Below, in pieces: positions 34,101 through 36,713 of a DNA stretch of 64,000 bases. The notes below the pieces were generated by a model that was not told where the DNA came from, did not search any database, and saw nothing but the letters and a program-made list of their open reading frames with translations. Both the position numbers and the translations under genes were made by a program. Source of the DNA: Numida meleagris (taxonomy: Eukaryota > Chordata > Aves > Galliformes > Numididae). Location: assembly GCF_002078875.1 (NCBI RefSeq), contig NC_034424.1, positions 652,945 to 716,944 of the forward strand, given 5' to 3'. Position 1 is the stretch's first letter. Every line of letters starts with the position of its first letter.

Positions 34101-36713
34101 CAGAGGCAAGTGCTGGAGAGTGGAGGAAGGTTCGTTGCTGCTCAGGGGAACCCTAATGTCTGTAACAAGGCTGTGGGGTGAGGGCCCAGTGCCTCATGGT
34201 GATTGGAACAAGAACGGGCAAAAAGTGATATCCATTGCACGTTAGCAGAAATAAATCGGCGTCCACTTCATTTTTGATAAAGTGGTTTCTCAGTTTTGGC
34301 TGTGCCCCTGGCTCTGATATCACTGTGATGGAGGAGTGGGGACAAAATACGAGTTGGACTAGATGGCCTTTGTGGGTCCCTTCCAACCTTAAGGATTCTA
34401 TGTGTCTATGAAAATGGATGCATGCTTACCACAGAGTACAAACTCCCAATGCCCTGGGCACACAGCTGTTGCTGTAGCTGATTGCTTACATGGCATGGCC
34501 TGGCTGTCCCTACAACTCTGTACCTGCACCCCATAGCATGGTGTTGCTCTGGTGCAGATGAAACCCTGTGGGCAGTGGGGCCAGGATGATGGCAGAGTGT
34601 CTGCATCCTGTGTCTGGATGGCAGTGTCTGTGGGCTGCTTCTCTCCTTTCCATCCTCAGCCCCAGCGCCAGGGTGATGCTAACAGCTCCCTCTCTCTCAA
34701 CAGCACAGTCCGTATCCCCGGCAGATATCACACCCTTGCTACCCCATGCCATGGGAGATGGAGATAGTTGAGGAGTGTGCAGATAGAATGCAGCTTCAGT
34801 CCTTCTTTCTGAGTTAGGGCCTGCAAGATGTGGTGGGGCCAAACCAGATACCAAGAACAACAACTTCTCCACACAGACAGAGAGGCACTGCCCGTGGGAG
34901 CGAGATTCCAGCCTTACAGGGAGGCAGTGGCACCACCACCCCAGCCCTGCTCAACAGTGGCAGGACTAACAAAATGCATGGGAAGGTTAAAGTCATCCAC
35001 AGGTTGGATCCTGCTTCTCCTCAAATCCCCCTGGGGTCTAGATCCTGCTTTCTGGGAGAGTGTAAGCACAGGCTGAGCTGGGGGGTAGGGGTCTCAGTGG
35101 CATCCCACATCAAGCGCTGGTAACGGCTCCCTCTCTCTCAACAGGACAGCCCGTACCCCCAGCAGATATCACACCCCTGCTACCCCAGGGGATACCAGGA
35201 GAACATCACCACAGCAGAGCTCTACGACAGTCCCTGCGTCCCCGCTCCGGGCACGCCCAGCCCTGCTCAGGTCCTCACGGTGACAGGGACAGGGAACCCG
35301 GCGGCGTGCCGCACTGCCATCCTGAAGCTCTTCAACTTCACCTGTGGGGCCAACAGGACGTGCGGGTTCGACGGGGTCTATCAGCCGCCCGTGCGGGGAC
35401 AGTTCTTTGTAAGGAGCCTCTGACTGCACAGTGGTGGTGTGGGTGCGGGGTTCTGGGGTGCCAGTCTGGTCAGTGCTCCAGAAAAGCTGCTGTAGGAAGA
35501 AGTGACAATGCCTTGAAATGGGGTGCCTTGAAAACTGGGATGTACCTGATGCATGGAGACATGCAGGGTGCTCAGCTGTGTGCCAAACACACTCCGACTG
35601 CCATGTTCTGTATTTCAGCACAGAGTGCAGTCCCCAGTGCTCTCTCCATGCTGGTTAGCAGGCAGCACCCTATGTGGCCTGCCCTTGGGATGCCTGCAGA
35701 GCACCCCAAGTGTGGGGCAGGAGGGTGGCAGGAGCCTGGGTGCTTCGCTAACCTGCTGCCTTTTGTCATAAACACCCACAGGCTTTTTCAGCATTTTATT
35801 ACAACCTCCACTTCCTGAACCTGACTGAAGAGCAATCCCTGAGTTCCGTCAATGACACTCTCTGGAAATTCTGCTCCAGGAATTGGATGACGGTGAGATC
35901 CTGTCCAGGTGCTGCTGGTCTCGGCCCTTGTCTCTCTCAGCCTTGGCACCAGGTGGCTTGGGCTCTGTCCTCTGCTGTGCGGAAGGGCCGCTGGGGGGAG
36001 CTGGAAGGAGCACAAAGATCTCTGGGCCGGGTGGGAGAGCAGCCTGCATCCTCCCACGTGCTCCTCGTTCCCCAGGTCTTTGCTTCTGGCTGCACTGCAG
36101 AGCCTTTCCCTACAATGTGGGTGCACCGAGCATTGCTCTGTACATGCAGTCTCACCTTGCTCTTTCTAATCTACAGTTGCAGAAGGACTTTCCCACCAGG
36201 AACAGGATCCACCTCCGTGACTCCTGTGCAGCCAGCTCCTACGTCCTCACCCTCCTGCTGCAAGGCTACAAATTCGACAGCAAGACATGGCTCAACATCC
36301 ACTTCCAAAAGCAGGTGAGAAGGCACCCAGCTGCCCTTTGCTTCACAGCTGCTTCACAAAGCTTGCACACTTGTGCCTGCCCTGCTCCTGTCCCTGGGGT
36401 GCAGGATCAAGCGATGATGGGTTGGCACAGTCCACCACCCGTGTCTGAGCTTGCCTGATACTTTGCAGCCCTTCACATCCTTCTTCCTTCTCTGTTTGCA
36501 CAGGTCTCAAATGTAGACGTTGGCTGGACTCTGGGCTATATGCTCAATCTCACCAACATGATTCCCTCGGAGACCCCTCAGAGAGTTGTAGTGCTCACAA
36601 AAAGCAAATGGGTAGCAGCCACAGTTGTACTGGCCATCATACTGATTCTCATCTTCTGCGTGATTGCGGCCTTATGCTACGGGAAGGACTCCTCTGGTTA
36701 TGAGAGCCTCTAG
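30818..36713 (+). CDS. ENTPD8-like ecto-nucleotidase, copy B, 502 aa
   Basis: GDA1/CD39-family ecto-apyrase. Exons: 30818-30943, 31138-31255, 32591-32741, 33006-33165, 33480-33710, 35145-35408, 35782-35892, 36177-36314, 36504-36713; all GT-AG, phases close, no internal stop. ACR1-5 are intact (DAGSTHT, GATAGMRLL, NEEGAFGW, DLGGASTQI, VGWTLGYMLNLTNMIP). The N-terminal anchor contains four Val-Leu-Ala units from a 9-nt repeat. The C-terminal membrane helix ends in a cytosolic tail YGKDSSGYESL, unlike A or C. Exon 5 begins YSFTGKW and has VGALD and YSVYTHSYLC, close to human ENTPD8 and unlike ENTPD2, so I place it in the ENTPD8 clade although its GC-rich exon 1 superficially recalls ENTPD2. Exons 2, 3, 4 and 6 are near-identical to A. 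Intron 2 carries a large CR1; intron 5 carries a broken exon 6 stub. Confidence 0.9.
31138..31291 (+). repeat. A/B homology block 1 (exon 2), B arm
   Basis: Inverted partner of 27722-27875. Differences are mostly synonymous or third-position, with one Gln to Arg change (YVYQW to YVYRW). Confidence 0.8.
31512..32230 (+). mobile_element. CR1 LINE, 3' part of ORF2, in copy B intron 2
   Basis: A frame from about 31,500 to 32,048 encodes the C-terminal part of CR1 reverse transcriptase, with motifs ERDLGVLVDD, KANGILGCIKR, RPHLEYCVQFW and LEHLPYEERL. The 3' tail ends in CAATTCTGTGATACTGTGAT. It is 5'-truncated but its frame is largely open, so the insertion is probably fairly young. It lies in the sense orientation. 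Confidence 0.95.
32552..32755 (+). repeat. A/B homology block 2 (exon 3), B arm
   Basis: Inverted partner of 26790-26993, the same 204-bp length, about 96% identical by eye including intron sequence before the acceptor. Confidence 0.85.
33006..33165 (+). repeat. A/B homology block 3 (exon 4), B arm
   Basis: Inverted partner of 25896-26055 with three differences seen. One His to Arg change results (KAIHEYP to KAIREYP). Confidence 0.85.
34338..34410 (+). mobile_element. CR1 LINE 3' tail fragment in copy B intron 5
   Basis: GAGTTGGACTAGATGGCCTTT, TCCCTTCCAACCTTAA and a terminal GATTCTATGTGTCTATG identify a short CR1 3' end. Confidence 0.85.
34704..34745 (+). pseudogene. Orphan 5' stub of the original copy B exon 6
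   Basis: After a good acceptor (TCTCTCTCAACAG) these 42 bases match the first 42 bases of functional exon 6 at 35145 with five differences (about 12%). The encoded start HSPYPRQISHPCYP parallels DSPYPQQISHPCYP. It then breaks directly into sequence collinear with intron 5 of copy A. It has no donor, and its frame runs to a stop near 34,816. I interpret it as the surviving 5' end of the pre-transfer exon. Confidence 0.88.
34746..35443 (+). repeat. A/B homology block 4 (intron 5 + exon 6), B arm, 698 bp
   Basis: Inverted partner of 23752-24449, two substitutions in 698 bp. Its left edge is exactly where the orphan exon stub ends and its right edge is about 35 bp past the exon 6 donor. B's working exon 6 therefore appears to be an imported copy. 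Confidence 0.95.

Follow-up and report, generated by a model that had tools for sequence, protein, structure and literature searches.

Probable scar of an ectopic gene conversion between two inverted ENTPD8-type genes of the guinea fowl Numida meleagris

Introduction

Coupled homologous and non-homologous repair was reportedly described by Richardson and Jasin in 2000. Gene conversion in mammalian cells exits by end joining when homology at the second end is missing, and in the assay concerned every junction carried microhomology or added bases, none being blunt (Hartlerode et al. 2016; PMC5104497). Long-lasting concerted evolution through gene conversion has been reported for the gene pairs BMP8A/B, DDX19A/B and TUBG1/2 (PMC2720389).

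The locus described here, a pair of ENTPD8-type genes of Numida meleagris, resembles both systems. As in the end-joined terminations of conversion, an end lacking second-end homology appears to have been closed by end joining, one edge of the transferred block lying just past a homologous exon and the other at non-homologous positions; in PMC5104497, however, breaks were induced in cultured cells and the junctions had microhomology or added bases, whereas here a germ-line sequence is concerned, no more than 1 bp is shared, and the break and the break end are inferred. Compared with the mammalian junctions this short overlap is a mild mismatch for an end-joined exit. Like BMP8A/B, which is also inverted and linked, the ENTPD8 pair is homogenised over part of its length, the rest diverging; the study in PMC2720389, however, demanded high identity across two neighbouring exons and the intron between them, whereas ENTPD8 exons 2, 3, 4 and 6 are separate tracts between unalignable introns, and exon 5 is not homogenised. 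Both the kind of event and the partial concerted evolution of inverted pairs (BMP8A/B, PMC2720389) are already known; in a search of the open-licence literature the locus and its scar were not found in print, nor was anything relevant on ENTPD8 gene conversion or avian ENTPD8 duplication, chicken NTPDase8 included.

The scar is a readable example of known gene-to-gene copying: relic, donor and recipient of one natural conversion can be read within 12 kb, so that the non-homologous edge is testable. Of greater interest is how the pair has evolved in concert, exon by exon; the same two genes contrast homogenised exons 2–4 and 6 with unhomogenised exons 5 and 7–9, which asks whether homology, selection or both limit conversion across birds.

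Results and Discussion

Gene layout: The window, i.e., the whole analysed stretch of 64,000 nucleotides of Numida meleagris DNA, carries two ENTPD8-type genes, A (minus strand) and B (plus strand), arranged head to head. Gene A (ENTPD8, 22103..28402, boundaries predicted and not taken from RNA) consists of exon 1 from the ATG (28402–28283), exons 2–5 (27875–27758, 26954–26804, 26055–25896, 25382–25152) and exons 6–9 (24050–23787, 23231–23121, 22977–22843, 22294–22103). Gene B (ENTPD8-like, 30818..36713, frame open to the stop) consists of exon 1 from the ATG (30818–30943), exons 2–5 (31138–31255, 32591–32741, 33006–33165, 33480–33710) and exons 6–9 (35145–35408, 35782–35892, 36177–36314, 36504–36713). 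In both genes, exons 2–9 keep an open frame to the stop, and each internal exon is flanked by AG and GT. The product of B is 94% identical to the Odontophorus record P0001 over 93%; exons 4–8 of copy A are matched by P0183 (Numida meleagris ENTPD8 isoform X3), which includes the translation of A exon 6. A third and more distant copy, gene C, follows B on the minus strand at about 38.9–45.6 kb; near its 3' end two 62-bp direct repeats (38777–38838 and 39867–39928; 95% identical, 1,090 bp apart) were observed. Exons of A, B and C match the GDA1_CD39 family model PF01150, exon 6 matches structures of NTPDase 2 and 1, and records named ENTPD8 match both A and B.

Shared block: A block of A type was found in B at 34746..35443 (plus strand), comprising 399 bp of A intron 5, exon 6 and 35 bp of intron 6; it is identical at 696 of 698 positions to the reverse complement of its counterpart in copy A (23752..24449, minus strand), the two mismatches being at B 34968 and 35428. 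Exon 6 of B (35145..35408, plus strand, 264 bp, open frame) is of A type and shows no difference from that of A (23787..24050, minus strand). Near identity with sharp edges on a diverged background, as expected of an ectopic gene conversion tract, was thus found both in the block (696/698) and in the dS of exon 6 (0, vs 1.0–3.2 for exons 5 and 7–9). The divergence of the block amounts to 0.3% (2/698; 95% interval 0.03–1.0); since the block may have been re-homogenised in the meantime, this value bounds the last exchange and not the event.

Relic stub: Upstream of the block lies what was announced in the preliminary description as 42 bp from an older exon 6 preceded by a full acceptor, with five differences and an abrupt stop; read and measured directly, these features are all present. 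The relic acceptor region of the old B exon 6 (34677..34703, plus strand) is identical to 35118–35144 at 25 of 27 positions, ends with CTCCCTCTCTCTCAACAG, has the same pyrimidine tract as the real exon 6 acceptor, and contains a CTAAC motif that may have served as a branch site, followed by the pyrimidine tract and AG. The exon stub (34704..34745, plus strand) comprises the first 42 bp, or 14 codons, HSPYPRQISHPCYP, and is identical at 37 of 42 positions to 35145–35186, the 5 differences being 3 synonymous and 2 nonsynonymous. Acceptor and stub together (34677–34745) are about 90% identical to the start of the present exon 6, 441 bp downstream; when the window was compared with itself, the 70-bp match of this region was obtained with E = 9.9e-20, so the similarity is not due to chance. 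Farther upstream in B intron 5, the segment 34340–34410 is presumably a CR1-like 3' end.

The word "older" calls for a refinement. The stub is real, and it need not be the undisturbed original, because its dS (0.45; 3 changes on 8.8 sites) is intermediate between the other homogenised exons (0.06–0.17) and the diverged ones (1.0 and above). Judged by this value, exon 6 had probably undergone homogenisation before, unless the relic decayed afterwards.

Junction: The base following the stub (34746) opens the A-type block at 35145 − 34746 = 399 bp before exon 6, as had been claimed. The junction itself (34745..34746) is non-homologous, with a microhomology of at most 1 bp (A) between the edge sequences, as judged with A exon 6 as a stand-in for the old B sequence beyond the stub, which is lost. 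Outside the block, the best A/B matches in introns 5 and 6 scored 18.3 and 19.7 bits, respectively, i.e., at or below the median of 200 control pairs (19.7 bits; 95th percentile 24.0; one strand only), and none was above chance. The position of the junction between non-homologous sequences is thereby borne out, and with it the further claim that ordinary conversion fails for the left edge, where position 42 of B exon 6 is joined to an A intron without homology above chance. The two edges of the block may be of different kinds: the left one is non-homologous and bears the 42-bp relic, and the right one lies 35 bp past exon 6, where, to judge from the flanks of exons 2 and 3, A and B may have been homologous before the event.

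Direction of transfer: The 399-bp spacer between stub and exon 6 is A intron (99.7%) and has no resemblance to the B intron preceding the stub. Had the end of intron 5 and the start of exon 6 been tandemly duplicated in B, an acceptor and an exon start would occur twice in direct order, as they do, 441 bp apart. Such an origin is contradicted by a spacer unlike the pre-stub sequence and by the loss of similarity 27 bp ahead of the stub: the match covers 27 bp of intron and 42 bp of exon instead of the full 441 bp. Only an unrecognisably old duplication could survive these observations, and the stub is less diverged than that; this origin was rejected, its probability being close to nil.

The opposite direction, with B as donor and A as recipient, would make the stub an old insertion in B, at which a later B-to-A conversion was halted. 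Conversion tracts can stop at heterologies, and the divergence of stub plus acceptor (7/69 = 10%; interval 4–21) against that of the block (0.3%) is what such an order of events would leave. The edge of the tract in A would, however, have to coincide to the base with the edge of the stub in B although no homology of the upstream introns is detectable, and A holds no clear relic. A remnant of exon 6 beside the A copy, which would reverse the direction, was looked for in a two-sequence search: none was clear, the best candidate (A intron 6; 24.0 bits, E 0.009) scoring at the 95th percentile of the intron controls, vs 81.1 bits for the stub as positive control, and it was discarded. Transfer from B to A is accordingly considered very unlikely. 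With A as donor and B as recipient, a single event would explain the spacer, the location of the relic and the shared edge base; the direction originally proposed stands on the relic in B, the lack of a clear remnant beside the A copy and the coincidence to the base of the end of the relic with the start of identity. Direction and age of the event were judged from this one genome.

Proposed mechanism: An ectopic gene conversion, with ENTPD8 copy A as donor and the inverted copy B beside it as recipient, probably left the junction as its scar. A break would have occurred in the old exon 6 of B, 42 bp in; the downstream B end would have paired with A exon 6 by homology, and synthesis would have run back through exon 6 and then 399 bp into the non-homologous intron 5 of A. 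As no homology was left to anneal with the other end of B, that end would have been closed by end joining with at most 1 bp of microhomology, so that the acceptor and 42 bp survived as a relic. At the right edge, 35 bp beyond exon 6, homology would simply have run out, and B would have retained one open exon 6, now of A type.

The main mechanistic rival remains a template switch at a stalled replication fork (FoSTeS/MMBIR), in which a fork stalled in B exon 6 would have jumped to A, copied 698 bp and returned with the aid of exon 6 homology. A non-homologous left edge is as expected for such a switch, and with 10.3 kb between them and in inverted orientation, the A and B arms could meet through fold-back at a fork. 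The left junction, on the other hand, has almost no microhomology (at most 1 bp), and the right edge (35 bp) is like those of other tracts of the pair, where identity continues for about 40 bp after exon 2 and for 39 bp ahead of exon 3; the identical flank is short, though, after exon 3 (14 bp) and at exon 4 (3–4 bp). Template switching is on balance judged unlikely.

Other homogenised exons: The A/B dS values of exons 2–9 are 0.16, 0.17, 0.06, 1.01, 0, 1.46, 2.11 and 3.19, the last ones being near saturation. Exons 2–4 (B 31138–31255, 32591–32741, 33006–33165; A 27875–27758, 26954–26804, 26055–25896) are thus also homogenised between unalignable introns. The tract around exon 3 occupies 26790..26993 in A (minus strand; B partner 32552–32755; 96.6% identity) and reaches 39 bp into intron 2, upstream of the exon, and 14 bp into intron 3, downstream of it, both as runs of exact identity; identity continues about 40 bp downstream of exon 2, and in the tract of B exon 4 (33002..33168, plus strand; 3 differences from A in 160) it ends 3–4 bp outside the exon. 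Conversion from a cDNA template is not supported for exons 2 and 3 (about 40 and 39 bp of intronic identity) or for the block (399 bp of intron); for exon 4, with only 3–4 bp of identity outside the exon, it may apply. The scar is probably one event of a series, as in the birds compared below exons 2–4 and 6 are homogenised within lineages and exons 5 and 7–9 for the most part are not.

Reliability of the assembly: The guinea fowl assembly NumMel1.0 (1.04 Gb) was made with ALLPATHS from reads of 100 bp, fragments of 180 bp, and mate pairs of 3 and 8 kb (PMC6579635), and short-read assembly is the main doubt on the scar. Because the block exceeds the fragment length, the sequence inside it could be a merged consensus. 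In an artefact, a repeat contig derived from A would have been fused to a left B contig ending in exon 6, and B would in truth have an intact exon 6; the short-read method, a block exceeding the 180-bp fragments and broken exon 6 models in other birds are in its favour. The gene models of Phasianus A (P0141, P0154) and of Colinus A and B (P0129, P0059) lack exon 6 or carry it truncated, in both Colinus genes at the same residue, which hints at a region that is hard to assemble. Nevertheless, the 64-kb window is free of N, as are 10 kb on either side. Since no more than 1 bp is common to the joined ends, an overlap assembler would presumably have required reads across the junction; such reads probably exist. 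The two A/B differences within the block also speak against an artefact, as does a search of the assembly with 34600–35500, which matched B, A and, weakly, C, three places in all, and revealed neither a further copy of the block nor an unbroken B-type exon 6. A misassembly is considered quite unlikely. A long-read guinea fowl assembly, HGFv1, exists (PMC8214406).

Pattern across birds: The window and 24 further birds were compared at the protein level, with gene models of others cut at the exon edges of the window and trees built with FastTree; the birds were hand-picked by species name as having both A-type and B-type records, drawn from the best 120 of 2461 and the best 120 of 2651 matches. 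Among these matches, the birds examined have two ENTPD8-type genes that differ in exons 5 and 7–9, and also in exon 1 in 11 species with data.

In the FastTree trees of the matches listed, the A and B sequences of one species are sisters for exon 6 in 23 of 25 birds, for exons 2–4 in 19 of 25 (the window not among them), for exon 5 in 4 of 25 and for exons 7–9 in none of 25, the 27 A rows and 30 B rows of the last region forming separate clades. Concerted evolution of a gene pair is accordingly seen among the matches listed in exon 6 (23/25) and in exons 2–4 (19/25). The within-species A–B identities, again among the matches listed, have medians of 1.00, 1.00, 1.00, 0.68, 0.98, 0.53, 0.49 and 0.40 for exons 2–9 (n = 24, 25, 25, 25, 24, 24, 25 and 25); the exon 3 values of Lophotis and Phaetusa (0.26 and 0.13), which look like gene-model faults, were retained.

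Exon 5 (33480–33710 and 25382–25152) has homogenised exons on both sides; among the matches listed, it is specific to each gene in 21 of 25 birds and identical in A and B in the other four (Podargus, Larus, Colius and Haemorhous); identity in these four may reflect either conversion or mixing of gene models. In 24 of 184 rows among the matches listed, exon 5 is nearer to A of the window, and exons 7 and 9 are nearer to B. These rows, together with the four birds of identical exon 5, speak against a strict boundary at exon 5.

Of the 24 species with data, 15 show differences between A and B over the whole of exon 6; in its inner part (72 columns, away from model edges) 11 of 25 birds do, both counts being among the matches listed; in those 11 birds the copies are therefore separate. 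The inner part is identical in 14 of 25 of the birds in the matches listed, including the window and Colinus (36 columns), and in these birds apart from the window, exons shared or collapsed in the gene models could lie behind part of the pattern.

Palaeognath records among the matches listed include four with A-type 3' ends (P0088, P0101, P0116, P0157) and two with a B-type exon 9 (P0057, P0079). As both 3' types occur in palaeognaths, the pair is, on the strength of these protein sequences, probably older than living birds, and exons 2–4 and 6 were probably homogenised in separate lineages. It may further be supposed, as a doubtful generalisation, that the avian ENTPD8 pair has been overwriting exons 2–4 and 6 mutually since before living birds diverged, between unrelated introns, with selection holding exons 5 and 7–9 apart; the guinea fowl scar would then be one such overwriting, and invasion within an exon with an end-joined exit, rather than symmetrical conversion, could be a working step of the process.

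Splice sites and folding at the scar: An exon running from the relic acceptor to the exon 6 donor would measure 705 nt and, like a poison exon, meet a stop at 34815 once 37 codons had been read; because of this stop, the relic acceptor is presumably skipped. No signal was obtained when the RNA of the junction was folded (z 0.19). The real exon 6 donor is weak: 4.5, vs 7.3–10.7 for six other donors, as scored with an approximate matrix.
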